Assembly: GCA_021779195.1 (NCBI GenBank)
Contig: JAJYBB010000007.1
Coordinates: 1 to 64,000 of the forward strand
Source of the DNA: Bacteroidota bacterium
GTDB taxonomy: Bacteria > Bacteroidota > Bacteroidia > Bacteroidales > Paludibacteraceae
Reading direction: 5' to 3'
Length of the DNA stretch: 64,000 nucleotides
A program made the position numbers and the translations under genes. The notes under the pieces are model-generated. The model saw only the letters and a list, made by a program, of their open reading frames with translations, was not told the origin of the DNA and did not search any database. Within the stretch, counting starts at the first letter, position 1; each line of letters begins with the position of its first letter. Positions 9,536-23,079 of the stretch are shown one piece after another.

Positions 9536-12385
9536 TTAAATTATTTCAGACCTAAACTTATATTCTCCCGAACCAACTTCATATACAGCTTTGCCATTTT
9601 CCGTACGTAAAAACTTAACTCCGCTTGATTTAGACGCTCGTTTGCTGCTTTCGGTAACACTTTTTTCGCTGATGGCAGGTACATAAACCGTAGCAGTGGT
9701 ATTGGCCGGAATGATAATGCTGAGTGTGAAAATATTCTTTTCGCGTTTCCAATCAACAGAAATAAGTCCGCTCACAGTTTTATAGGATCCTTTTACCCAT
9801 TTAAGATCGCCAACGGGAGTAGGTTTAATAATTGATTTACGAAAACCGGCTCCATCGGCTTCGACGCCAATGCCTAGTAAATCATGAAAAAACCATTCAT
9901 TTATTTGCCCCGACATAAAATGATTTTGTGAGCCAAAACTTCCTACACTGGCATCCCATTTTTCGGTAAGCGAAGTGGCACCCATTTTTATCTGATAACC
10001 GTAACCGGGTTTTTCGGACTGATTATTCATATCGTAAATCACATCGGAATGCCCTTCCATAGCCAGCGCCCCCAACAGAAAGCGATAACCTACTTCGCCT
10101 GAAGTAAATGCATTGCCACGCCGGCGAATATCCGATACCAATGAATCTGCAAGTGTTTTCCGGTTTTTGGGCTCTACTATGTTTAGAAACAATGGCATGG
10201 CACAGGTGGTATTGGAACCGGTAGCATAAATTCCTTGTTCCGGTTTATAAAACTCCTTGTTGAACGAAATTCGAATAGCCTCAGCCCGTTCATTATAGAA
10301 TGAGGCATCTTCTTTTTTACCCAGAACAGAAGCTATATGCGACAGAATTTGATTGTCGTAGAAAAAGATAGCCGTTGCAGTGAACGACACAGGCGTTAGC
10401 TGTGAACCCCAGGCTGGTTTGGGACCGATGTCGTACCAATCACCCAGACCGTTACGAATAATATTGTTGTTGGATGAAGAGTCCAAAAATGCAACATAGC
10501 GTTTCATTTGATTGTAATAACGGCTAAGCAACGACACATCACCCGAAAAAAGATATTGCTGCCAGGGTACAATGATAAACGAACTGCCCCATTCGGGCGA
10601 ATTGCGGAAACCGTTGTTGATGTCTGGCGTAACAATGAAAAATTCCGGTGCAATATCGGGAATCAGTCCGTTACTCAACTGGCAATCAGCCATATCATTC
10701 ATTGCTTTGCGAAAATTGGTGGTCAAATCGAAGTTATACCTGAGCGACGGGCCATTGAGATGGTATTGTTCCAACCAACTTTGTTTTTCGCGTTGCGGAC
10801 AGTCGGTCAATATCGACATCATATTGCTTCGTTGTGCCCATCGAACAAGGGAATAAATACGATTAAAAAGCTCGTTGGAACAGGAAAATTTTCCGATAGG
10901 TTCTGTCGAAGAGTGAATCACTACTCCCTGAAGAGTTTCCACTGTGGGTAAAACACTATCGCCCGCTGCAGGAAACAATTCCACCTGTAAATAACGTCCT
11001 CCCTGATAGAAAAATTGAGGAAACCAATGTTCTGTTTCTTTTGACGATAGAGTGTATTGCCACCAGGCGGGACGCACGCCATCCTGAGTTGCCGATGTAC
11101 GATCAACAGTTCCATCGGGTTTTAATAACTCGGATGGGATAATACGGATACAGGCTCCGGGCACGCCTTTCATGCTTATTTGCGGCATGATGGAGGCATT
11201 TTGTCCGAGGTCGTACACCCAAAGATTTGGTTTTATTTTATTGATTTTGATGGGAGCCAATGTTTCAATGGCCCTGATGGGTGAAGCTGCACAGGACAAC
11301 CCTTTGAGTTCACCTCCCGGACCAGCACATTCGATGGCTTTACTCCAGCGTTCATTGGCCTTAAAAGATGATTGATTCCAACCTTCAGGCATTAAGCGGG
11401 CATCAAAATCTTCGCCACCATAAAAGTTTGAATAAGTTACGGGACCGGGGGCAACCTGCCAGCTTTTATCGGTACCAATCGTTTTCACAGAGCCATCAGC
11501 ATATTCGAGGCGCATTTGCACAATGGCTTTTAAGGGTCCGTACGAACCCAAAAACTTAACATATCTTACCGAATCTGGCTGTATATTATACACACTATTA
11601 CCCAGTATTAACCCAATGGCATTATCTCCGGTTTTGATTTGTGTGGTTACATCGTAAGTATCATATAAAACAGTTTTGGGATAATAAGACCAACCGGGAG
11701 ATAGAATGTAATCGTCGATTTTACTGCCGTTTATGAAAAGCTCGTATTGACCCAAACCACTGACATGTACAACGGCACGTTTTAGTTTGGAGGCTGCATT
11801 AAAGGTTTTTCGAAGTAGCATCGAGGAGTAGTTTGTGTCTTCGGGTTTTGGGCAAAATTTACGCATCTCATCCAAATTGCGTTTTAGATTGAAATCACTC
11901 TTAGCCGATTTGTATTGATGTGCGTACTTTTCGGCACCATCAGCCGAAATCCACCGAGCTACCCAGTCGTTAGCGTTAAGTAAACCCATTGTCCACTGAG
12001 CCGGTTCGCTCCACGTCGATTCGACACCTTTTTCGTCCCATACTTTTACTTTCCACCAGCATTGTTGACTCGATTGTAGTGGTTTTCCCTGATATTCAAT
12101 CTGACCCATTTTGTCAGAAAACACTTTCCCTGAATTCCATAGATCACCTTTATTGCTATTTAGCAGTTCAATTGACGAAGCAACTTTAAGCTCATAAGCG
12201 GTCTGACGCATCGCGCGTTTTTCAGAGTCAGTTTTTATCGTCCAGCTTAATGTCGGATTTGGTGAGTCAATACCAAGAGGATTAACCCAGAAGTCGCACC
12301 GCAAATCCACCGGAAATACCGCAGAATAAATAGCTGACGTAACGAATACGAGTAAAATTGTTGTAAAGAATCTCAACACCCTCAT
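9536..12385 (-). CDS. Secreted alpha-L-rhamnosidase (GH78)
   Basis: 949 residues with an N-terminal signal peptide (hydrophobic stretch FFTTILLVFVTSAIYS). The order fits bacterial GH78: an N-terminal fibronectin-like domain (LRCDFWVNPLGIDSPNPTLSW), a rhamnosidase N domain with VSGLGQYELFINGS, the concanavalin-like domain, then the (alpha/alpha)6 barrel. The hallmark acidic patch is TDCPQREKQSWLEQ near residue 530, and a second conserved acid is in SLTEKWDAS. It removes terminal alpha-L-rhamnose from plant or bacterial glycans in the periplasm or outside. It starts 16 bases after the stop of the GH2 gene and is probably co-transcribed with it. Confidence 0.92.
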   Translation of the reverse strand: MRVLRFFTTILLVFVTSAIYSAVFPVDLRCDFWVNPLGIDSPNPTLSWTIKTDSEKRAMRQTAYELKVASSIELLNSNKGDLWNSGKVFSDKMGQIEYQGKPLQSSQQCWWKVKVWDEKGVESTWSEPAQWTMGLLNANDWVARWISADGAEKYAHQYKSAKSDFNLKRNLDEMRKFCPKPEDTNYSSMLLRKTFNAASKLKRAVVHVSGLGQYELFINGSKIDDYILSPGWSYYPKTVLYDTYDVTTQIKTGDNAIGLILGNSVYNIQPDSVRYVKFLGSYGPLKAIVQMRLEYADGSVKTIGTDKSWQVAPGPVTYSNFYGGEDFDARLMPEGWNQSSFKANERWSKAIECAGPGGELKGLSCAASPIRAIETLAPIKINKIKPNLWVYDLGQNASIMPQISMKGVPGACIRIIPSELLKPDGTVDRTSATQDGVRPAWWQYTLSSKETEHWFPQFFYQGGRYLQVELFPAAGDSVLPTVETLQGVVIHSSTEPIGKFSCSNELFNRIYSLVRWAQRSNMMSILTDCPQREKQSWLEQYHLNGPSLRYNFDLTTNFRKAMNDMADCQLSNGLIPDIAPEFFIVTPDINNGFRNSPEWGSSFIIVPWQQYLFSGDVSLLSRYYNQMKRYVAFLDSSSNNNIIRNGLGDWYDIGPKPAWGSQLTPVSFTATAIFFYDNQILSHIASVLGKKEDASFYNERAEAIRISFNKEFYKPEQGIYATGSNTTCAMPLFLNIVEPKNRKTLADSLVSDIRRRGNAFTSGEVGYRFLLGALAMEGHSDVIYDMNNQSEKPGYGYQIKMGATSLTEKWDASVGSFGSQNHFMSGQINEWFFHDLLGIGVEADGAGFRKSIIKPTPVGDLKWVKGSYKTVSGLISVDWKREKNIFTLSIIIPANTTATVYVPAISEKSVTESSKRASKSSGVKFLRTENGKAVYEVGSGEYKFRSEII

Positions 12386-12401
12386 GATTTTTAGTTAAAA
12401 A

Positions 12402-14822
12402 TTAGTCTTTCTTTGAATTAATATTTATAACCGCATCGGTTAAGTCTGGTGAATTTACCGTTAGCTTAATATTGCCGGCAGCATGTGTACTTCTGATGAC
12501 CACCATGGCACGACCTTTCCATGCATTGCGTGAAAAACCAACATACGAATCAACATCTTTCAAATTAGCATTAGCTACCCCGGCAATTACGCCAGTGCCT
12601 TCAACCTTGAAAGTAAGTCTATTTTCGGCATTCGGCTGCAAAATGCCATCCTTATCAGTTATTTCAATAGTAATAAATGATAAGTCCTGACCATTTGCTA
12701 AAATTGTTGAATGGTCAGCTGTCAGCTTAATTTTAGCAGCGCTTCCAGCAGTTTTCAGCAGGGTGGTTTCCACTTCTTTGTTATCCAGTACCCCAACAGC
12801 TCTTAATTCTCCCGGAGCATAAGGAACCGTAAAAGTAGCTTTAAACTGCTGCTTTTCAGTTGTTACTTGTTCGCCAATAAGTTTATTATTTAGATAAAGT
12901 CGAACCTTAGGGTACTTAGAATAGATTTCAACCTGTAGAGCTTTTCCTTCAAAACCCGGCCACGTCCAGCTTTCCCACGTCGGCCAAACAGCCCATTTCG
13001 TCACTTTAATTTCAATGGGTTTTGGTTCAGGTTCCCGCACGGCCATGTAGAGTTTTTCGGTGTTATTATATAACATACTCCGATAATGTGATATGGGTTT
13101 TCTCCATCCTGTCAAATCAATATCACCACAATATGCGCCATGCCAGGGAAACAAATTGCCTTCCCAGTGTTCTCCCGGAATATCGCCTGAATAATACCAA
13201 CGGCCAATACCTGATTCGCCCAAATAGTCGAGTGCTGTCCATACAAAGTCGCCAATGACATAATTGTTATTTTGCACCAACTTCCAATTTTCAAAAGCAT
13301 CTTTTGGATATGATTCCGTTTGAACAATAATACGTGCAGGGACACGCTTATGGTCCGATTCTGCACGTCCTAACTCGTAATTATATCCACATACATCATG
13401 CGCTGCCATTAGTGGGTCGAATATTTCCCAATCTTTATCCCAGGTGGTCATTGCAGAAGTTACAGGTCGTGTCGGATCAATTTTACGTACACAATTAACC
13501 AGCATTTTAGCCGTTTCAACTGCTTCGGGTTTTTTCCGTTCAATTACTTCGTTACCAATACTCCACATTATAATGGAGGGATGATTCCGATCGCGAAAGA
13601 CCATCGATTCAAGGTCGCGTTGCCACCATTCATTAAAAATTGAAGCATAATCGTATTTGTTCTTTTGTTCTTTCCAACCATCAAATGCCTCGTCAATAAC
13701 CATCATTCCCAAGCGGTCGCAAGCAGCTAAAAATGCTTCTGATGGTGGATTGTGCGATGTTCGGATTGCATTAAATCCGGCTTCTTTGAGCAGTTCTACG
13801 CGCCTTTCTTCAGCACGGTCGAATGCCGCAGCTCCTAAACAACCATTATCGTGGTGTACGCATCCCCCGTTTATTTTCATTGTTTTTCCATTCAGTTGAA
13901 AGCCATTTTCAGCACTGAATTTGATTGAACGAATCCCAAAGGAAGTTTTGAAATTATCAATAACATTTTTATTCTTTACAATCTGAACTTGTACTTCAAA
14001 AAGATGGGGCGTTTCGGGTGTCCACAACATAGGTTTTGACACAATGATAGTTTGGGTAATTTCCTTTTCGCTATTTGGTAAAAGTTCTACCGTTAGTTGA
14101 TTATTTCCGCTATTTTTTGATTTTGCATCCCGAAGTCGGATTTTAAGAATGATACGTTGGGATGTGTTTGTTTCATTCATTACCCGTGTTTTAATCTGAA
14201 CGGTCGCTTTTGCAGATGATACGAATGGAGTTGTAATTGCCACGCCCCAATGGGCAACATGAATAGGGTCGGTAATAATCATCCAAACATGACGATAGAT
14301 GCCTGATCCACTGTACCACCGGCAATTTTTTTGCATTGAATTGTCTACACGTACCGATAGAATATTATCCTTATTGTAATTGACGTATGGGGTAAGGTCG
14401 TAGCAAAACGAAGTATAACCATATGGGTGCACTCCAAGCGATTTTCCATTTATGAAAACCTGAGAATTCATGTAAACACCTTCAAAATAGATTGAAATGC
14501 ATTTTCCCTTCCACGATGCAGGAACAGTCAATGTTTTTCGATACCAGCCGATACCAGCCGGGAAAAACCCTCCATCACCACCTGTGGGATTTTCAGGATT
14601 TATTATACCTTCAATGCTCCAATCGTGAGGCAAATCGAGAGTTCTCCAGTTTTTATCGTCGAAATTGTTGGCACTGGCAGCTGGGGTATCTCCCAAATTA
14701 AATTTCCAGTTGTAATCGAAAAGTTGTTTACGCTCAATAATTTCCTGTTTTTGAGCATACCCGCCAAGGTAATTTGAGATAAGAAAAAATGCAGAAATCA
14801 GGAATTGAACGTGTTTTGTCAT
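12402..14822 (-). CDS. Secreted beta-galactosidase-type glycoside hydrolase (GH2)
   Basis: 806 residues with a signal peptide (FLISAFFLISNYLGGYAQ). A sugar-binding beta domain (about 30-210), an Ig-like domain and a TIM barrel follow. The acid/base is E425 in WSIGNEV, and the nucleophile is E503 in VQTESYP. The C-terminal part (after WAVWPTWESWTWPGFEG) matches the DUF4982 and big-Ig extension of Bacteroidetes GH2 enzymes. Beta-galactosidase is the default call; beta-glucuronidase or another GH2 specificity cannot be excluded. It is first in a pair with the GH78 gene. No SusC/SusD pair or sensor-regulator is in the window. Confidence 0.9.
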   Translation of the reverse strand: MTKHVQFLISAFFLISNYLGGYAQKQEIIERKQLFDYNWKFNLGDTPAASANNFDDKNWRTLDLPHDWSIEGIINPENPTGGDGGFFPAGIGWYRKTLTVPASWKGKCISIYFEGVYMNSQVFINGKSLGVHPYGYTSFCYDLTPYVNYNKDNILSVRVDNSMQKNCRWYSGSGIYRHVWMIITDPIHVAHWGVAITTPFVSSAKATVQIKTRVMNETNTSQRIILKIRLRDAKSKNSGNNQLTVELLPNSEKEITQTIIVSKPMLWTPETPHLFEVQVQIVKNKNVIDNFKTSFGIRSIKFSAENGFQLNGKTMKINGGCVHHDNGCLGAAAFDRAEERRVELLKEAGFNAIRTSHNPPSEAFLAACDRLGMMVIDEAFDGWKEQKNKYDYASIFNEWWQRDLESMVFRDRNHPSIIMWSIGNEVIERKKPEAVETAKMLVNCVRKIDPTRPVTSAMTTWDKDWEIFDPLMAAHDVCGYNYELGRAESDHKRVPARIIVQTESYPKDAFENWKLVQNNNYVIGDFVWTALDYLGESGIGRWYYSGDIPGEHWEGNLFPWHGAYCGDIDLTGWRKPISHYRSMLYNNTEKLYMAVREPEPKPIEIKVTKWAVWPTWESWTWPGFEGKALQVEIYSKYPKVRLYLNNKLIGEQVTTEKQQFKATFTVPYAPGELRAVGVLDNKEVETTLLKTAGSAAKIKLTADHSTILANGQDLSFITIEITDKDGILQPNAENRLTFKVEGTGVIAGVANANLKDVDSYVGFSRNAWKGRAMVVIRSTHAAGNIKLTVNSPDLTDAVININSKKD

Positions 14823-14962: not shown

Positions 14963-16042
14963 TCAAATATTTTCAGCTTTTACTCTTCCAAACCGCAACG
15001 CTTTCAGCATCCAATCACTTAAAGGTTTTTCAGGATTATACTTGCGTAAGTTGAGGTATATTCCCAATTTCTTTATCATTGGAATTTTATGTGTTTCCAC
15101 AAATTCAATCAGTGTTCCGTCAACATCTTCGATATAAGTAAATTGACCGGATGCTTCGCCCATATCAAAATCACCTTTAACCGAGCTATCGACGGTAAAA
15201 TTGAAACCCATACTTTCGCATTTTTCTTTTAAAGCATTCATGTTGCGGACATCAAAACAGATTTGTATAAATCCGGGATCGCCCCAAAAGCGTCCTTCAT
15301 AAATTTTTCGGGGGGCGCGCTCCAGTGCCTGAACAAGCTCAATGGTCGATTGTCCGAATAGCCGGCTAAAACTTCCCTTACGCGGGTTGGAATGAGTGAG
15401 CAAAACTCTTCTGAATTTTTGGTTTCCTGAATTCAATCCTGTTATGTCGTCGAAATTCCCTTTTACATCGGCAATCACTTTGTCGTAGCCCAAAATTTCC
15501 TGATATACCGGCAATGAACGCTCGATATCTGTTACGCCAACGATTCCACCCACGGGTCCGCCGGACGAACGGTGTTCGTCCCTGAAAATAGTTTCGTCGT
15601 GAACAATCTGAAATACATTCGAAAATGGGTCTTCCATGTAAAACGTATCAGTGCCATCTATATACTTACTCAATCCTCCAAGTATTTTAATTCCAGGATT
15701 TTTTGAAAATTCGTGATAAGTTTGTTTTACATTTCTGCTTTTCATCTTGGCAACGCATATTCCTAAATCGCCAAATTGTATGTCGAAATCAGGTTTTTTG
15801 GGTTTGCGTTCGGAATATTGCCAAATTTCGAAGCCGCTTCCACCTTGCATATTAATGGCTATGGCAGCATGGCGTTTCTGAGGTTTATTTCCGGTGTAGG
15901 GCAACATCAATTCGGCAATTGTATCATCTTCAAGAATCTTCACGTCCATGTTAAACGTACCGATGTAATATTTCCAGGCTGTTTTGAAGTCTTCCACTCC
16001 AATTCCAAGTTGTTGGATCCCACTTATAATATAATCGGCCAT
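14963..16042 (-). CDS. Two-domain VOC (glyoxalase/dioxygenase superfamily) protein in sulfonolipid-type operon
   Basis: 359 residues with two vicinal-oxygen-chelate domains. The first (about 5-150) begins with GIQQLGIGVEDFKTAWKYY and ends with YMEDPFSNVFQIV. The second (about 162-325) begins with VGGIVGVTDIERSLPVYQE and ends with YIEDVDGTLIEFVE. Candidate metal ligands are E in FEIW, H in IVHDE and E in LIEFVE. It is the last gene of a four-gene operon; its start lies 3 bases after the stop of the reductase gene. The function is unknown. A role in modifying or hydroxylating the lipid product is only a guess from position. Confidence 0.75.
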   Translation of the reverse strand: MADYIISGIQQLGIGVEDFKTAWKYYIGTFNMDVKILEDDTIAELMLPYTGNKPQKRHAAIAINMQGGSGFEIWQYSERKPKKPDFDIQFGDLGICVAKMKSRNVKQTYHEFSKNPGIKILGGLSKYIDGTDTFYMEDPFSNVFQIVHDETIFRDEHRSSGGPVGGIVGVTDIERSLPVYQEILGYDKVIADVKGNFDDITGLNSGNQKFRRVLLTHSNPRKGSFSRLFGQSTIELVQALERAPRKIYEGRFWGDPGFIQICFDVRNMNALKEKCESMGFNFTVDSSVKGDFDMGEASGQFTYIEDVDGTLIEFVETHKIPMIKKLGIYLNLRKYNPEKPLSDWMLKALRFGRVKAENI

Positions 16043-16045
16043 GAC

Positions 16046-16843
16046 TTATGATGGTTTTATTTTCCGTGCTAAAATTCTTGATAATGAGGGAATAAATCTT
16101 TTTATATAAACCATAACCAGTTCTTTTCCTCCTGTCATAACCTCCGGTTTTCGTTTGTAAATTCCGTTTACAATTTTTCTGGCTGCTTTTTCTGCTGTGA
16201 TTCCACCGGCTTGTCCTGCATCAAGTTTTGCATGGCGTTTTCCGTCGTTTTCCAATGCATTTATTGAAATGTTTGTGTTGACAAATCCCGGACAAATCAT
16301 CACTACGCGAATGTTTTGGTTGTAGTATTCGGCCTGAAGTGTTTCAAAGAAACCGTATAAGGCATGTTTCGAAGCACTGTAAGCCGATCTCAATGGAAAT
16401 CCGAATTTGCCGGCAATGCTCGACGTTACTGCGATGGTCCCGGATTTTCTTTTAAGCATCTCCGGCAATACAAGTTTTGTAATGAGTACCGGTGCAAAAA
16501 AGTTGACATCCATAATCTTTTTGTCAACTTCAAAAACAGTGTCGATAGTTAGTCCCCGCTGGCTTATTCCGGCATTATTATATAAAACATCGATGGTGTC
16601 GAAACAATTAAAAGCATCTGCAACCAAGTTTGGAATTTTATCTATATTTGATAAATCAAAAGGGAGTATTTTGCATTCTGCACCCAATTCCATGCATTTA
16701 TCCTGTGTCTTTTTCAACGCATCAATTCTCGTCCCGGTAAGGATAAGGTTCGCTTTTTCAATAGCGAAAAGATAAGCACAGGCTTCACCAATTCCCGATG
16801 AAGCTCCTGTTATCCAAATTGTTTTATTTTCGAACTTTGCCAT
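16046..16843 (-). CDS. Short-chain dehydrogenase/reductase, candidate 3-ketocapnine reductase
   Basis: 265 residues from the ATG at 16843. A longer in-frame start at 16870 would overlap the upstream gene. Classical SDR motifs are present: nucleotide site TGASSGIGEA (12-21), NNAG at 89-92, SSIAG at 141-145, and the catalytic pair Y155 and K159 in YSASKHA. It sits third in the operon, 5 bases after the threonine-synthase-like gene. In known sulfonolipid synthesis a reductase of this family reduces the 3-keto intermediate with NADPH. That assignment here is inference from context. Confidence 0.85.
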   Translation of the reverse strand: MAKFENKTIWITGASSGIGEACAYLFAIEKANLILTGTRIDALKKTQDKCMELGAECKILPFDLSNIDKIPNLVADAFNCFDTIDVLYNNAGISQRGLTIDTVFEVDKKIMDVNFFAPVLITKLVLPEMLKRKSGTIAVTSSIAGKFGFPLRSAYSASKHALYGFFETLQAEYYNQNIRVVMICPGFVNTNISINALENDGKRHAKLDAGQAGGITAEKAARKIVNGIYKRKPEVMTGGKELVMVYIKRFIPSLSRILARKIKPS

Positions 16844-16848
16844 GTTTG

Positions 16849-18162
16849 TTAATCTTCGATGGCAGCCCACAATTGATCCCGATAAGCGTTCATTATGTGA
16901 GGTTTACATTGTTCTACCTTGTCAATGATTTTTGTGGTATAAATCATTTCATTTACAAACTCGGGCGCACGATTTACTCCTTCACCGATATTCAACAACA
17001 CGGTTTCCCCATCTTTTATCAACCCTTTTTTAAGCGATTCGAAAAAACCGGCTATACAAACTGCCGACGCAGGACCCAACATTACTTTGCTTTCAAAAGC
17101 GATTAATCGGGCGTAAGCGGCTATCTTATCTTCGCTGATTCTTACAAAATTGCCATCAACAGATTTTACTAACTTTGCAATAATCGGATAAGTGCCCGGA
17201 TGTCCTGTGGCGAGTGTAGGAATTGTAGTATCTGGATTGTGAATGGAAGGAAAGTCTTTTTCGTATCCTGTTGGGAAGTCATTTATTTCTGCCTTTTCCC
17301 AGGCTTGAACCATTGGATCGCATTTGTCGGGTTGAACTAAAAGAAACCTTGGATTTTTCAACCCCGGATAAATAGATTGTATTTCGCGCACCCCTTTATC
17401 GATGGCAATTGGGCCTGTACCGCCACTAATAGCCTGAATATACACATCAGGCATTTTGCCTAACTGACGCAACCATTCAAAAACCATGGTTTTTTTAGCT
17501 TCAACCCTGATCGGATCAATATTCCCGTTGGAAATAAGAATATTGTTTATTTTGGCATACTCGGCAGCAATTACTTTGGTTTTTGTATAATCTCCGTTGG
17601 TTCTGAAAACCTGCTGTCCATAAGCACTAATAAATGCTTCAGAAGCTTTCAATGCATTTTCGGGAATAAAAACCGAACAATTTATTCCGGCAATGGATAA
17701 ATAAGTGGCGTAGGAAGTTGCCGTATTCCCAGTTGAAGCTACACAATACTGGTTAACGCCATATTCTTTAAAAATACTTGCTGCCAACGAAGCGGAAACA
17801 TCTTTAAAAGTGCCTGTGCCACCATTCAAATCATTTCGATAAACATGTACCTGAATGTTTATATTATAGTTGTTTCTGACAAACTCTTCCAGAAAATTCC
17901 ATTGTTGAAGCGGAATTCCTCCTTCCATGCATGTAACAATATTCGTTGGATCGATAAGTGGCAGATAGGGCAAATATTCCCAAAAGCTATCCACTTTTTC
18001 TTCCATTATGGTTTTTAATCCTTTATAATCGGTATTATACCAAACTTCGGAATGCTTGCTCCCGCATACGGGACAAACCTGGTTTTGCTCAAACCAAGCA
18101 CCAAAATCGGAAGTTTTATGCCCACATGCGACACATTGTAAATAATATTTTTGTTCGCTCAT
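16849..18162 (-). CDS. Threonine-synthase-like PLP enzyme, candidate cysteate synthase
   Basis: 437 residues of the fold-type II PLP family. The PLP lysine is K120 in GTFKDVSAS, and the phosphate cup includes STGNTATSYA and SGGTGP. Residues 10-36 form a zinc knuckle (CVACGH, CPVCGS) seen in archaeal-type threonine synthases. Threonine synthase is the default annotation. The gene follows a lipid-type acyltransferase by one base and precedes an SDR. Cysteate synthases that use phosphoserine and sulfite evolved from this family and sit in such operons, so cysteate synthase is the preferred guess. A housekeeping threonine synthase would normally sit with homoserine genes, none of which are here. 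Confidence 0.75.
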   Translation of the reverse strand: MSEQKYYLQCVACGHKTSDFGAWFEQNQVCPVCGSKHSEVWYNTDYKGLKTIMEEKVDSFWEYLPYLPLIDPTNIVTCMEGGIPLQQWNFLEEFVRNNYNINIQVHVYRNDLNGGTGTFKDVSASLAASIFKEYGVNQYCVASTGNTATSYATYLSIAGINCSVFIPENALKASEAFISAYGQQVFRTNGDYTKTKVIAAEYAKINNILISNGNIDPIRVEAKKTMVFEWLRQLGKMPDVYIQAISGGTGPIAIDKGVREIQSIYPGLKNPRFLLVQPDKCDPMVQAWEKAEINDFPTGYEKDFPSIHNPDTTIPTLATGHPGTYPIIAKLVKSVDGNFVRISEDKIAAYARLIAFESKVMLGPASAVCIAGFFESLKKGLIKDGETVLLNIGEGVNRAPEFVNEMIYTTKIIDKVEQCKPHIMNAYRDQLWAAIED

Positions 18163-18163
18163 C

Positions 18164-19417
18164 TTAAACTATGTTCATTGCCTGCATTTCGGCTGTGTTA
18201 TATTTCCCTGTGGACAAATTTGATTTAATATTCTTGAAAGCTGAAATTGTTTCTTTTACGTCTGCTAATGTGTGAGATGCTGTAGGAATTAAACGTAACA
18301 TCAAAACCCCTTTTGGTACTACCGGATAGGCAACTATGGAACAAAATATATTATAGTTTTCTCTCAGATCAACTACGATATTGGTTCCTTCGGCCACACT
18401 GCCATTGAAATATACCGGAGTAACAGGTGATTGTGTGTGCCCGATGTCAAATCCATCTTCTTTCAGTCCGCTTTGAAGGGCACGGGTAATTTTCCATAAG
18501 TTTTCTTTATGCTCCAGTTGCGTTTGAAGAATTTCTAAGCGTTTTAATGCTCCGAATACCATTGGCATTGGGAGTGATTTTGCAAAAATTTGCGAACGCA
18601 TATTAAATCGCAATGAATCAATGATTTCAACTTCCGAAGCCACGAAAGCTCCAATGCCGGCCATACTTTTAGCAAAAGTCGAAAAATAAATATCTATCTG
18701 ATCCTGAACTCCAAAGTGTTCGCCTGTTCCGGCTCCTGTTTTTCCCATGGTTCCAAAACCGTGTGCATCGTCAATTAAAAGTCTGAATTTAAAATTTTTC
18801 TTTAGTTTTACAATTTCATCGAGCTTACCTAAATCTCCTGCCATACCAAATACACCTTCGGTAATCACAAGCACTCCTCCATCTTGTTCGTCGGCCAGTT
18901 TTGTGGCGCGTTCTAATTGTTTCTTCAGGTTTTCCATATCGTTGTGAGGAAACACGAACCGTTTTCCGATATGAAGTCGTAATCCATCAAGTATGCAGGC
19001 GTGTGATTCCGAATCGTACACAACAACATCTTTTCGGTCTAATAAGGAATCGATGATCGAAACCATGCCCTGATACCCGAAATTCAATAAATAGGACGAA
19101 GGTTTGCCGACAAATTTGGCCAGTTTATGTTCAAGTTCTTTGTGGTATTTTGTTTCGCCCGACATCATACGGGCGCCCATTGGGTAAGCCATTCCGTATT
19201 TCAACGCAGCTTCAGCATCAGCTTTTCTAACTTCAGGATTATTAGCCAGCCCCAGGTAATTATTTAAACTCCAGTTTAGCACTTCTTTTCCGTTAAATCT
19301 CATTCTTGGGGCAATTTCGCCTTCTAATTCTGGAAACATAAAATAACCATCTGCTTTTTGTTGATATTGTCCTAATGGACCTTTTGCTGCTTTTAATCTG
19401 TCGAAAATGTCTACCAT
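18164..19417 (-). CDS. Alpha-oxoamine synthase family PLP acyltransferase, candidate cysteate fatty acyltransferase
   Basis: 417 residues of fold-type I, in the family of serine palmitoyltransferase, KBL and BioF. The PLP lysine is K250 in STFAKSMAGIG. DDAHGFGTMG carries the PLP-binding Asp and His, and ESHACILDG stacks on the cofactor. The N-terminus (IFDRLKAAKGPLGQYQQKADGY) and WSLNNYLGLA match a Bacteroidetes subgroup which, from the literature as I recall it, contains the cysteate acyltransferase of capnine synthesis. The reaction would join L-cysteate with a fatty acyl thioester to give 3-ketocapnine and CO2. Serine palmitoyltransferase is the main alternative; the neighbouring threonine-synthase-like gene argues for cysteate. 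It is the first gene of the operon. Confidence 0.8.
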   Translation of the reverse strand: MVDIFDRLKAAKGPLGQYQQKADGYFMFPELEGEIAPRMRFNGKEVLNWSLNNYLGLANNPEVRKADAEAALKYGMAYPMGARMMSGETKYHKELEHKLAKFVGKPSSYLLNFGYQGMVSIIDSLLDRKDVVVYDSESHACILDGLRLHIGKRFVFPHNDMENLKKQLERATKLADEQDGGVLVITEGVFGMAGDLGKLDEIVKLKKNFKFRLLIDDAHGFGTMGKTGAGTGEHFGVQDQIDIYFSTFAKSMAGIGAFVASEVEIIDSLRFNMRSQIFAKSLPMPMVFGALKRLEILQTQLEHKENLWKITRALQSGLKEDGFDIGHTQSPVTPVYFNGSVAEGTNIVVDLRENYNIFCSIVAYPVVPKGVLMLRLIPTASHTLADVKETISAFKNIKSNLSTGKYNTAEMQAMNIV

Positions 19418-19518: not shown

Positions 19519-19546
19519 CAAAGATAATACTTAATATAACTTCAAA
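19519..19546 (-). promoter_or_regulatory. Candidate promoter of the sulfonolipid-type operon
   Basis: On the minus strand a -7 element TATCTTTG (19519-19526) follows a TTTG (19543-19546) after 16 bases, close to the Bacteroidetes consensus. It is 102 bases upstream of the first operon gene. Confidence 0.5.
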
Positions 19547-19940: not shown

Positions 19941-20954
19941 TTATCGTGAACGAATTTCCTTTTTCATAAAAGAAACGTACGACAACACAAAGCATGTTAT
20001 CGTTGCCGCCACAAGTCCGGTTAACTGTGTCCATACCAACAAAAGGCTTTGCGACAAAGGTAACGGACCGGGAATAGCACCATAAAGTTGTTCCTGTGTT
20101 AATGGTCCGAGACTCCGTATATTAGGCATAAGCAAAGTGGTTGTAGCATCGCTAAACAACTGGTTTGGCAAAAGGCGCATTAAAACTGTATGGAGTTGAT
20201 TCAGTGCGATCAACCTTTGTTGAGAAGCAAACTCTATGTTTGAAGGAGAAAGTCCCCTGATAATGAGGTTTACAATCAATGGATAGAATATCGTCAGAAA
20301 AAGCCAGATGGCAATTCCGGCAAGCGCAGCCGTAGCGGGTTGTCTAAATCGAATGGAAAAGAAAATGGAAAGATTCAGCCAAAAAGCAACGTAAAAAATA
20401 TTCAATATGATGAAAAATATGATGCGCCAGAATTCTTCGGCATTGGGTGGAATGCCCAGTGTGATCAGCCCGATTCCCATCACTAAAAAAGCAAGTGCAA
20501 AAAACATAGCTGAAATCACTAATATAGCTCCTGTAAATTTAGCATTGATCACATAATCACGATGAATGGGCTGCGCCAGCATACGGCTCAACGTTCCTCT
20601 GTTCTGTTCAGAATTAATAGCATCAAAACCGAGACTAATACCCAGCAGCGGTCCCAGAAAACCCATAAATACGAAGAATGAAGGCATTGTACCATCCGAT
20701 ATTGTGAAAAGTTTTAAAAAAAAGAACGTATCTGCTCCATTAGCAGACTTTATAGCATTGCCCATGCCAGTCAGTGCAGTATAGATGGAACCAATACCAG
20801 TCAGAATAATTAGGGTTAACATAATAATAAAACGCCAACTCCGTAAATGATCAGAAATTTCTTTTTGAACAATGACCCAAAAAGGATGTCTTACACCATA
20901 TGGATTGCCGAACCAACGGGGCAATGTTGAATTTGTGTGTGCAATTCTTTTCAT
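19941..20954 (-). CDS. ABC-2 type transporter permease
   Basis: 337 residues from the ATG at 20954. The frame extends upstream to 20996, but a strong GGAGG seven bases before this ATG and only one base between the ATPase stop and this ATG decide the start. About six membrane segments are visible, the first at FIIMLTLIILTGIGSIYTAL. The conserved SEQNRGTLSRMLAQPIHRD marks ABC-2/CcmB-like permeases of the NosY/YhaP kind. It forms the membrane channel for the ATPase encoded just upstream. Substrate is unknown. The Shine-Dalgarno site lies inside the last codons of the ATPase gene, so translation is probably coupled. Confidence 0.88.
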   Translation of the reverse strand: MKRIAHTNSTLPRWFGNPYGVRHPFWVIVQKEISDHLRSWRFIIMLTLIILTGIGSIYTALTGMGNAIKSANGADTFFFLKLFTISDGTMPSFFVFMGFLGPLLGISLGFDAINSEQNRGTLSRMLAQPIHRDYVINAKFTGAILVISAMFFALAFLVMGIGLITLGIPPNAEEFWRIIFFIILNIFYVAFWLNLSIFFSIRFRQPATAALAGIAIWLFLTIFYPLIVNLIIRGLSPSNIEFASQQRLIALNQLHTVLMRLLPNQLFSDATTTLLMPNIRSLGPLTQEQLYGAIPGPLPLSQSLLLVWTQLTGLVAATITCFVLSYVSFMKKEIRSR

Positions 20955-20955
20955 C

Positions 20956-21921
20956 TTATTTACCTCCTTCAAAATATTGGTAATAAATATCGTCAAGTCC
21001 GTACTCTTTTTTATGTAAGTAACTTAAAATAAGACCTGAATTTATTAATATTTTTGCAATTTCAGCAGATATATCTGTGTCGGATTCAATACGAAATACA
21101 TCGTTCTCAATCGAAATTTTCCGAATTCCATGAATGGGCAGTAATATTTTTTGCAGTTGCGCCACGCTTACTTTAGCTACGTTTATTTTAGGAGGTTGAG
21201 ATACGCTGACTTCAACCACAAATAGTTGATTGTTAAATAGCTGCTGCGACAATGATTGAATATTCCCTACACCAAGCAATTTGCCATTTATAAAAATTCC
21301 CACCCGATCGCAAACCTGTTGCACTTGATGTAAATTATGCGATGAGAATAACACGGTCAGTCCTTTTTCTCGACTTAATCCAACAATCAGATCAAGAAAT
21401 TCACGCACTCCATTGGGGTCAATGCCTGAAGTGGGTTCATCTAAAACAATGATTTCCGGATTTTTAATCAGCACATCTGCTAGCCCTAAACGTTGGCGCA
21501 TGCCACGCGAATAATTGCCGGTTTTCTTTTTCAAACTATCCGACAGACCAACTTTTTCAAGCAATTGCTCTGCAAGAACGGTAGCTTCAATATCAGGAAT
21601 GCCGTTGAGATGTGCAGTAAACATTAAGTTTTCTAATCCGGTTCGATTATCATAAAAGCCTACATCTTCAGGCAAATATCCTATTTTTCGCTTCACTTCG
21701 ACCGGATAACTGGTGGAATTAATGCCACAAACCTGTACCGAGCCCGAAGTTGGTTCAGTTAGTCCCAATATGGTCAGGATAGTTGTGGATTTACCGGCTC
21801 CGTTAGGTCCCAATAATCCAAAAATTTCTCCTTTGCTAATCTTGAGATTTAACCCATCGACTGCCGTGAATGAACCGTACTTTTTAGTCAGATTGACCAA
21901 TTCGATAACAGTATTATCCAA
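20956..21921 (-). CDS. ABC transporter ATP-binding protein
   Basis: 321 residues starting with TTG at 21919-21921. An AGGAGG seven bases upstream and the stop of the previous gene three bases upstream support this unusual start. The Walker A is GPNGAGKST (38-46), the signature YSRGMRQRLGLA, the Walker B IIVLDEP, and the switch His is in SSHNLHQV. The C-terminal 90 residues resemble the DUF4162 tail of drug/copper-type exporters. It powers the ABC-2 permease encoded downstream. The operon also has a NEW3-domain membrane protein, a grouping found in bacteria and archaea with no settled substrate. Confidence 0.9.
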   Translation of the reverse strand: MDNTVIELVNLTKKYGSFTAVDGLNLKISKGEIFGLLGPNGAGKSTTILTILGLTEPTSGSVQVCGINSTSYPVEVKRKIGYLPEDVGFYDNRTGLENLMFTAHLNGIPDIEATVLAEQLLEKVGLSDSLKKKTGNYSRGMRQRLGLADVLIKNPEIIVLDEPTSGIDPNGVREFLDLIVGLSREKGLTVLFSSHNLHQVQQVCDRVGIFINGKLLGVGNIQSLSQQLFNNQLFVVEVSVSQPPKINVAKVSVAQLQKILLPIHGIRKISIENDVFRIESDTDISAEIAKILINSGLILSYLHKKEYGLDDIYYQYFEGGK

Positions 21922-21924
21922 AAT

Positions 21925-23079
21925 TTACCTCCTTCCATATTTTCGGAAAAGAAAATAAACTACGCCTATCGCGGCAAAAATAATCAGAATACCTATCCAA
22001 CCCCAAAGCAATGAGGTTTCAACCGACATTCTTAACGTTAAGGAAGACGATGTCTGGGAATTATTTGCCTTTATTTCGCTTTCATAATCACCTGGAATGG
22101 CTTTTTTATCCGCTTTAATATGTGCAAATACAGAAACTGAAGCTCCGGGTTGAATCGCATCAATCGTTGTTGGTTCAAAAGATATATCCCAGTTTGAAGG
22201 CACATTTCCTGATAGTTGCACGTTTTGAAGTATTGAAGAACCCGTATTTTGAACCAGAATCTCAATTTTTTTAGAACTTCCGGCTGTAATTTTAGAACTT
22301 AGCAAGCCTGTAGGTGTGGTAAGTCCCATATTATAAGATCCTGTAACTACAACGGACAGGTTCATTGATGTTGAAGTATTTGATGCTTGTGCCACAATTG
22401 GAATTGAATAGGTTCCGGCTTGAATCTGATCGGGTGGCGTAATTTCAATACCGATATTCTGAGATTTGTTTGGGCCTACACTAACAGCGGAAACTTCTTT
22501 GTAATTAGACTTAAAAACCACCTTCCAACCTGAATTAACACGCGCTTGCAACGCATATAACAAACTGTCGGCAGTCATATTCTGCAAATTGGACTGAAAT
22601 GTAAATGTGGTTTTTGATGTGCCTTCCATATTCGACTGATCTGTTGTCAAAACTGTTTTATATATGCCTTGTTTGGCTATTTGCGTAACCAAAGGCAACG
22701 AATACAGACCGCGTGCCACAATATAAAAACGGTAACTTCCTTTGTTGATTTTCAACGGTACATTTACGGTCAGGGTAAAGTTTTTCCGTTCGCCCGGAAG
22801 AACTGAAATGCCGGTTACTTTCCAGCCCCCCGATAACAATGCTGAAGTCCAGCCGCTACGAAGTCCCTTTACCCCAAGTGAGAAATGCTGAATCTGTTTG
22901 CTGTTGTTGATGGCATCAACATCGTAGGTAACCGTCTGACCAGGTGAAACTGAAATGTTGGTGTAAGGGGTGTACAAAAAAACACTGTCGGTCGATACTG
23001 CTGCCGATAGATCAGCTGACCATAAAAAGAAAATAGCAACAATAAATTGCAAGATAACGTTTTTAATGCGCATTGTCAT
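21925..23079 (-). CDS. NEW3-domain membrane-anchored protein of ABC operon
   Basis: 384 residues. A signal peptide (FIVAIFFLWSADLSAA) is followed by three or so NEW3/NPCBM-associated beta domains with repeated pattern VSPGQTVTYDV, VLPGERKNFTLTV and IQPGASVSVFAHI. One C-terminal membrane helix (LLWGWIGILIIFAAIGVVYFL, slightly split here in description) and a basic tail RKYGRR follow. It would face the periplasm and be held in the inner membrane, possibly as the substrate-handling partner of the ABC pair. GGAGG six bases before the ATG at 23079 supports the start. It is the first gene of the operon. Confidence 0.82.
   Translation of the reverse strand: MTMRIKNVILQFIVAIFFLWSADLSAAVSTDSVFLYTPYTNISVSPGQTVTYDVDAINNSKQIQHFSLGVKGLRSGWTSALLSGGWKVTGISVLPGERKNFTLTVNVPLKINKGSYRFYIVARGLYSLPLVTQIAKQGIYKTVLTTDQSNMEGTSKTTFTFQSNLQNMTADSLLYALQARVNSGWKVVFKSNYKEVSAVSVGPNKSQNIGIEITPPDQIQAGTYSIPIVAQASNTSTSMNLSVVVTGSYNMGLTTPTGLLSSKITAGSSKKIEILVQNTGSSILQNVQLSGNVPSNWDISFEPTTIDAIQPGASVSVFAHIKADKKAIPGDYESEIKANNSQTSSSLTLRMSVETSLLWGWIGILIIFAAIGVVYFLFRKYGRR

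Follow-up and report, generated by a model that had tools for sequence, protein, structure and literature searches.

Four minus-strand open reading frames (ORFs) at positions 14963–19417 of a 64,000-nucleotide stretch of Bacteroidota DNA raise the question of whether they form an operon for the synthesis of capnine, the sulfonolipid base, and, if so, what the fourth of them contributes. The stretch, hereafter the window, comes from a Paludibacteraceae bacterium (GenBank assembly GCA_021779195.1, contig JAJYBB010000007.1, positions 1 to 64,000), hereafter the host, whose genome is a 3.12-Mb draft of 96% completeness; the window lies on contig 9. Sulfonolipids are sulfur relatives of sphingolipids; they induce choanoflagellates to form colonies and have been linked to inflammation. 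An original prediction had read the four genes as a capnine operon with an extra VOC-domain gene. We consider it probable, from the genes alone, that the operon makes capnine, genes 1–3 providing the cysteate route and gene 4 being a dedicated member of the pathway. The part of the prediction that held was the family of gene 1 and the co-occurrence of the VOC gene with the acyltransferase; the role of gene 2 is assigned by context, and the step given to the VOC protein is a proposal. The enzymes of sulfonolipid biosynthesis have been called largely unknown (PMC11211663).

Organization of the operon

The strand, the lengths and the intergenic gaps of 1, 5 and 3 bases are exactly as first described. 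The genes are as follows.

18164..19417, minus strand: gene 1, cysteate fatty acyltransferase (CFAT), SulA/CapB family; 417 aa; scores against Protein Data Bank (PDB) sequences, tree clade, conserved lysine
16849..18162, minus strand: gene 2, threonine-synthase-like pyridoxal phosphate (PLP) enzyme, candidate cysteate synthase; 437 aa; N-terminal zinc-ribbon-like cysteines, gene context
16046..16843, minus strand: gene 3, classical short-chain dehydrogenase/reductase (SDR), candidate 3-ketocapnine reductase; 265 aa from ATG; SDR model, catalytic residues
14963..16042, minus strand: gene 4, two-domain VOC (glyoxalase-fold) protein; 359 aa; Pfam, structure model, conserved residues, co-occurrence with CFAT

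An alternative GTG start listed for gene 3 at 16870 would make it overlap gene 2. Pfam matches were Aminotran_1_2 for gene 1 (120 bits), PALP for gene 2 (153 bits), adh_short for gene 3 (172 bits), and Glyoxalase_4 and Glyoxalase for gene 4 (39 and 35 bits). Default annotation is probably blind to the pathway, as had been anticipated, because no NCBIfam cut-off is reached by gene 1, 2 or 4, and the only model over cut-off for gene 3 is a generic SDR one. In the proposed route, gene 2 would use O-phosphoserine and sulfite to make cysteate, which gene 1 would join to an acyl thioester (acyl-ACP, ACP being acyl carrier protein, in Alistipes finegoldii) to give 3-ketocapnine, gene 3 would reduce this ketone and gene 4 would serve as a dedicated pathway member, N-acylation being left to a gene outside the operon.

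Gene 1 belongs to the SulA family

Against PDB sequences, gene 1 scored 637 bits with 7u7h, which is SulA of A. finegoldii (PMC9304779), and 590 bits with 28eh, a cysteate-C-fatty acyltransferase, compared with 256 bits for the best serine palmitoyltransferase (SPT). In a 32-row tree it fell within a 29-row clade containing SulA and 28eh (support 100/99), apart from SPT and from the host's own SPT and KBL, the KBL row being a long branch. The PLP lysine, Lys250, and the SulA-type Lys280 were kept in 49/49 aligned relatives; translations containing a stop, short translations and duplicates were excluded from this and the other residue-conservation alignments. Lys280 is the equivalent of SulA Lys281, which replaces an alanine of SPT and distinguishes SulA from SPT (PMC9304779). 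By score, tree and key residue, gene 1 is predicted to be a CFAT of the SulA family, and it groups, as the original prediction expected, with SulA/CFAT rather than SPT or KBL. The host's two other alpha-oxoamine synthases over cut-off are an SPT (667 against 640) and a KBL (652 against 493), so that gene 1 is neither of these by default. Identification of gene 1 as KBL, SPT or BioF was ruled out by the bit scores, the SulA clade and the host's separate SPT and KBL.

The host's SPT (L002, C19:244918-246027) passes its cut-off in a genome that also carries CFAT, which contrasts with a review's suggestion that sphingolipids and sulfonolipids are possibly mutually exclusive in Bacteroidota (PMC10191378). 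Fused CFAT proteins of about 1110 aa, with AMP-binding ligase and phosphopantetheine (ACP) domains at the N-terminus and CFAT at the C-terminus, were found in three distant members of the phylum (L142:2472-5849(+), L146:7574-10897(-) and L147:2226-5573(+)), and in each the VOC gene lay next or next but one to the fusion. Such a fusion may represent a built-in acyl-ACP supply.

The gene set is kept in relatives, and the VOC gene is nested in CFAT genomes

Eighty named VOC loci were compared; they are the best of 574 confirmed relatives of gene 4 and are therefore biased to near kin. An SDR was present in 62, CFAT in 29, gene 2 in 27, all four genes in 26 and some heterodisulfide reductase (Hdr) gene in 24. 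The named loci most similar to the window came from one Bacteroidales bin and one Paludibacter bin. Orders of the four genes varied, strand included: CFAT-TS-SDR-VOC, VOC-CFAT-TS-SDR, and VOC facing SDR-TS-CFAT, TS standing for the threonine-synthase-like gene. Because the set recurs with its order and strands rearranged, a chance cluster was ruled out. Housekeeping genes of the ordinary kind (KBL, threonine synthase, SDR and glyoxalase), brought together by chance, would fit the generic domain names, but the host encodes a separate SPT, KBL and ThrC, each over cut-off, gene 1 lies in the SulA clade and the set is kept in rearranged orders; we regard this explanation as exceedingly improbable.

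Co-occurrence was counted in an order sample of 198 Bacteroidales genomes and a phylum sample of 296 genomes, with match thresholds of 1e-100 for CFAT, 1e-60 for gene 2, 1e-60 for the Hdr membrane gene (X5) and 1e-50 for CysD; SDR matches were those above 200 bits, the cut being placed in a gap between 203.9 and 176.2. Many of these genomes are bins, so gene absences are soft, and the Fisher p values below treat genomes as independent although they are related. Some named loci overlap the samples (L067/G185, L068/G120, L070/G081, L078/G154 and L115/G037). Strong relatives of gene 4 (41–61% identity) occurred in 63/198 order-sample genomes, plus one weak match (27.5 bits, in G155) that was excluded from the table, leaving 63 of 64, and in 41/296 genomes of the phylum sample. 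All 41 of the latter have CFAT, which is found in 108/296 overall, as do 57 of the 63 in the order sample, where CFAT is found in 141/198. Gene 4 is tied to the pathway by this co-occurrence, and the count bears out its original placement there. The two genes lay within about 10 kb of each other in 10/57 order-sample and 6/41 phylum-sample genomes (the window counted in both).

Gene 3 matched the SDR model PRK06181 with 232.6 bits, over the cut-off of 215, and the catalytic residues Ser142, Tyr155 and Lys159 were present in 71/71 aligned relatives. SDR and VOC genes occurred together in 59/198 Bacteroidales genomes, each being found alone in four. Six SDRs in total are active on 3-ketocapnine in C. 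gleum and A. finegoldii (PMC11211663). Family and context make gene 3 a likely 3-ketocapnine reductase.

A PlsC-type acyltransferase (PF01553, about 468 aa) adjoins SDR-VOC, directly upstream of the SDR gene, at L078:1342-2745 and in seven further loci (L085, L097, L103, L115, L117, L121 and L123), and lies within 3.5 kb of VOC in six more. It is a candidate for the N-acylation enzyme of capnine.

Gene 2 is a candidate cysteate synthase

Gene 2 fell below the NCBIfam cut-offs for threonine synthase (best, 158.5 of 303; thrC, 92.9 of 167.1) and for the cysteate synthase model TIGR03844 (122.4 of 324.9), and the same search listed no match to the CapA model NF053679. All 17 aligned relatives matched both threonine synthase and cysteate synthase models, with best E values of 5.2e-53 and 3.9e-38, respectively. 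The predicted structure of gene 2 matched Bacillus subtilis threonine synthase with E 3e-25, a root-mean-square deviation (rmsd) of about 2.5 and a TM score by target of 0.88–0.89, compared with E 1.4e-18, rmsd 12 and 0.73 for PDB 9k3c, the cysteate synthase CapA2 of A. finegoldii; the TM score by query was alike for both, 0.71. The stretch 241–252 agrees with CapA2, against threonine synthase. The host's other four PALP proteins are a CysK, two of TrpB type and a ThrC (models over cut-off), the last of which (L008) scored 297 bits over a cut-off of 167, and gene 2 is accordingly accompanied in the genome by another gene over the thrC cut-off. No host PALP protein passed NF053679, the CysK-type L004 scoring 237.9 of 600.

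The 2022 work of Liu on CapABC is said to place CapA among CBS/CysK-related proteins. The archaeal cysteate synthase removes the phosphate of O-phosphoserine by elimination and then adds sulfite; a title cited in the same paper derives the enzyme from threonine synthase (PMC12713407). Alistipes and Odoribacter use a homologue of this archaeal type instead of CapA (PMC10191378). The original claim of an established threonine-synthase-like cysteate synthase was thus only half right: it fits the archaeal-type homologue of these two genera, but the NCBIfam CapA model matches the host's CysK-type protein, below cut-off, and gene 2 is distant from CapA2. The name "CapA2" did not occur in the papers searched for it in the open-licence PubMed Central (PMC) literature.

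The gene neighbourhood was informative. In 39 order-sample genomes other than the host, CFAT lay within 8 kb of gene 2 in 12, cysH, cysD, cysN or cysQ in 13, either of these in 20 and the Hdr cluster in four. The names cysH, cysD and cysQ are based on matches above NCBIfam cut-offs in L140, L128 and L158. At the genome level, gene 2 was associated with VOC (both in 29 order-sample genomes, p 2.9e-9) and with the nearer CysD clade (28/40, p 0.0076), not with CysD at large (p 0.57). Because CFAT or cysH/D/N/Q lies within 8 kb in 20/39 genomes, we read gene 2 as a candidate cysteate synthase of a separate lineage, outside CapA and CapA2, an assignment made on context.

Sulfur genes beside the lipid genes

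In relatives, a five-gene Hdr-like cluster encoding HdrC, HdrB, an HdrA-like protein, HdrC and a CCG-domain membrane protein adjoins the lipid genes. Its family matches lie under the NCBIfam cut-offs, with Fer4 and CCG of Pfam over cut-off. In L137, from the host's own family, the order is CFAT-TS-five Hdr genes-SDR-VOC. Other loci contain sulfate-assimilation-type cys genes beside gene 2, CFAT or VOC.

L049:102-5018; L066:11073-15975; L101:14342-about 19237: five-gene Hdr-like cluster beside CFAT/VOC
L135:3877-8828; L136:6389-11391; L137:8124-13079: five-gene Hdr-like cluster beside CFAT/VOC
L128, L139, L140, L158, L160, L161, L163-L167, L169, L170: 13 loci with cysH, cysD, cysN or cysQ

The Hdr membrane gene was found in 64/198 genomes, and 61 of these 64 also carry CFAT (p 3e-8); the membrane gene or CysD was present in 128/141 CFAT genomes compared with 27/57 others. 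The sHdr system of sulfur oxidisers converts sulfur to sulfite (PMC11582611), and by analogy we guess that the Hdr-like cluster may supply sulfite; electron supply is another possibility. No lipoate-binding family was seen among the recurrent neighbours, where no search was aimed at lipoate-binding proteins, and no paper on sulfonolipids and heterodisulfide reductase was found in the open-licence PMC literature. Strict alternation of the two sulfite modules was rejected: among 140 loci picked in two ways (VOC-centred and gene-2-centred), Hdr genes (X5 or X2) occurred in 25, Cys genes in 13 and both in none, but at the genome level CysD and X5 were both present in 40/141 CFAT genomes, the negative association being weak (p 0.017).

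These neighbours bear on an alternative in which the operon is the same capnine operon and the VOC protein has a sulfur-side function, in the handling of sulfite or cysteate, and does not act on 3-ketocapnine. VOC stands first in cysH-cysD-cysN runs in L158, L160 and L163, the Hdr-like cluster follows VOC in many loci with no CFAT in view, and in three genomes a divergent VOC match (28–29% identity) sits about 1.1–1.2 kb from CysD and shares its strand (G044:C16:15215-17820, G066:C638:61-2853 and G155:C358:12674-15126). Its closest partner in Bacteroidales is nevertheless the SDR, and the three loci with VOC beside the fused AMP-ligase-ACP-CFAT show no sulfur genes in view. We hold a sulfur-side role to be a doubtful but serious possibility.

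A possible metal site in gene 4

In the AlphaFold prediction for gene 4 (mean pLDDT 88), the order of strands and helices can be read as four VOC modules, which make up two domains. The fold neighbours belong to the glyoxalase family and include GLOD4 and maize glyoxalase I, matched with a TM score by query of only about 0.5 and rmsd 5–8, and gene 4 passes no family cut-off beyond generic Pfam domains. Four candidate ligands were conserved in the alignment of relatives: Q11 in 98/104 (one H, five gaps), E72 in 104/104, position 260 as H in 57 and Q in 47, and E313 in 104/104. Judged by motif, these would match the four metal ligands of glyoxalase I, which belongs to a class of enzymes that shift protons adjacent to a carbonyl. 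The conserved residues suggest a metal site of glyoxalase-I/epimerase type. A dioxygenase role is less likely, because the conserved residues are not a 2-His-1-carboxylate set and HPPD-like matches superpose poorly (rmsd about 21). Two product peaks have been reported that the authors speculated to be epimers (PMC11211663). We propose, tentatively and while rating it on balance unlikely, that gene 4 encodes a metal-dependent isomerase akin to glyoxalase I and methylmalonyl-CoA epimerase, converting either C2 epimer of 3-ketocapnine into the other; the C2 proton, next to the carbonyl, is acidic, and C2 epimerisation would let the reductase use both epimers. No paper whose title joined sulfonolipids and glyoxalase was found in the open-licence PMC literature.

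The glyoxalase-family fold neighbours would also suit a repair or protective enzyme, off the main line of the same operon, that deals with reactive alpha-amino-ketone by-products, and the many CFAT genomes lacking VOC are in keeping with such a role. Its strict nesting in CFAT genomes and its strong conservation across distant lineages argue the other way, and we judge a protective function unlikely.

Evidence against the capnine reading

Several results count against the capnine reading or one of its parts. For gene 4, six of the 63 order-sample VOC genomes (G022, G036, G084, G157, G171 and G174) lack CFAT at 1e-100, and their gene-2 regions hold none either; 67/108 phylum-sample CFAT genomes lack VOC, so that VOC is not required for the pathway as such. 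For gene 3, only 4/20 VOC loci examined outside Bacteroidales have an SDR nearby. As regards sulfite, no source was found in the host genome: searches for CysD (at 1e-50), the Hdr membrane gene (at 1e-60) and a PAPS reductase (over cut-off) gave no match, and neither did one for HdrB, made without a positive control.

Other points concern gene 2. A profile of its 17 relatives scored threonine synthase at 125 bits and CapA2 (9k3c) at 82, the CapA2 match spanning the full length (positions 6–397), and of 335 columns, the gene 2 consensus sided with one threonine synthase alone in 65 and with CapA2 alone in 47. In 19/39 genomes, some of them with gene 2 on a short contig, no queried gene lay within 8 kb of it. 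Gene 2 and CFAT were not associated at the genome level in the order sample (33/40 against 108/158, p 0.083), and 7/40 gene-2 genomes lacked CFAT at 1e-100. A close CapA2 orthologue was ruled out by the profile scores, the structure comparison and the column agreements, and because these favour threonine synthase, gene 2 is no known cysteate synthase by membership. Gene 2 might then supply another amino acid for gene 1, or act as a threonine synthase or other beta/gamma-replacement enzyme, with cysteate coming from elsewhere, e.g. from a side activity of CysK. The nearness to threonine synthase in sequence and structure would fit this, as would the 108/141 order-sample CFAT genomes lacking gene 2; its place in one operon with a CFAT in which the SulA lysine is retained, the sulfite-forming neighbours and the ThrC elsewhere in the host speak for a cysteate synthase, and we find such other roles decidedly unlikely.

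The preferred reading is that of a capnine operon with gene 2 as the candidate cysteate synthase. A fuller version, which we offer as a long shot, would be a self-contained Bacteroidales sulfonolipid locus that combines a third cysteate synthase of threonine-synthase ancestry, a dedicated sulfite module that differs by lineage (cysH/D/N/Q, or sHdr-like HdrC-B-A with HdrC and a membrane HdrD) and a VOC protein as the first epimerase of a sphingoid-type base, acting on C2 before reduction.

Flanking sequences

The operon flanks contain no lipid genes. Downstream (window 9536–14822) lie alpha-L-rhamnosidase and GH2 glycosidase genes, and upstream (window 19941–23079) genes for an ABC-2 permease, an ABC ATPase and a NEW3-domain protein, neither group with an evident link to the operon. 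No clear promoter was found: one candidate, TTTG-N16-TANNTTTG, belongs to a pattern with six matches in the whole window compared with 5.4 expected. A terminator scan gave no clear signal above chance.

19519..19546, minus strand: possible Bacteroidetes-type promoter, weak, TTTG-N16-TATCTTTG, 5′ of the operon; not above chance

Comparison with known systems

If correct, the reading provides a compact gene set for the sulfonolipid base and a marker overlooked by default annotation, together with a candidate cysteate synthase from a lineage not yet described and, in VOC, a conserved gene of the pathway. The Hdr-like cluster, cysH/D/N/Q and the PlsC-type acyltransferase bear on the origin of sulfite and on capnine N-acylation.

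We regard the locus as a known pathway in altered form. Compared with the route through SulA/CapB-CFAT, CapA or CapA2, and CapC/KCR, gene 1 belongs to the SulA family, and genes 2 and 3 to the fold families of CapA2 and 3-ketocapnine reductase. The reductase genes tested from C. gleum and A. finegoldii lie apart from cfat and cys (PMC11211663), whereas here all are in one operon; gene 2 is of a lineage other than CapA or CapA2, and a VOC gene is added. With CapA2 (9k3c) and the archaeal TIGR03844, gene 2 has the threonine-synthase fold in common, and with CapA2 also the motif at 241–252, but identity to CapA2 in the structural alignment is 18%, and in the alignment two of the four N-terminal cysteines are missing from CapA2. 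Gene 2 is closest, in sequence as in structure, to the threonine synthases of B. subtilis, A. aeolicus and T. thermophilus (TM score by target 0.86–0.89), yet their loop at 244–252 reads GNAGNI where gene 2 has GGTGPI, and the host's ThrC is encoded elsewhere. The relatives' Hdr cluster, which is not in the host, resembles sHdr/HdrABC in its HdrC, HdrB, HdrA-like, HdrC and CCG membrane proteins, and differs in that the HdrA-like protein is short (341 aa) and no NCBIfam cut-off is passed. Among VOC superfamily members such as glyoxalase I, GLOD4 and methylmalonyl-CoA epimerase, the first two are represented among the fold neighbours of gene 4, which keeps Q/E/(H or Q)/E at positions that, judged by motif, would be those of the glyoxalase I ligands.

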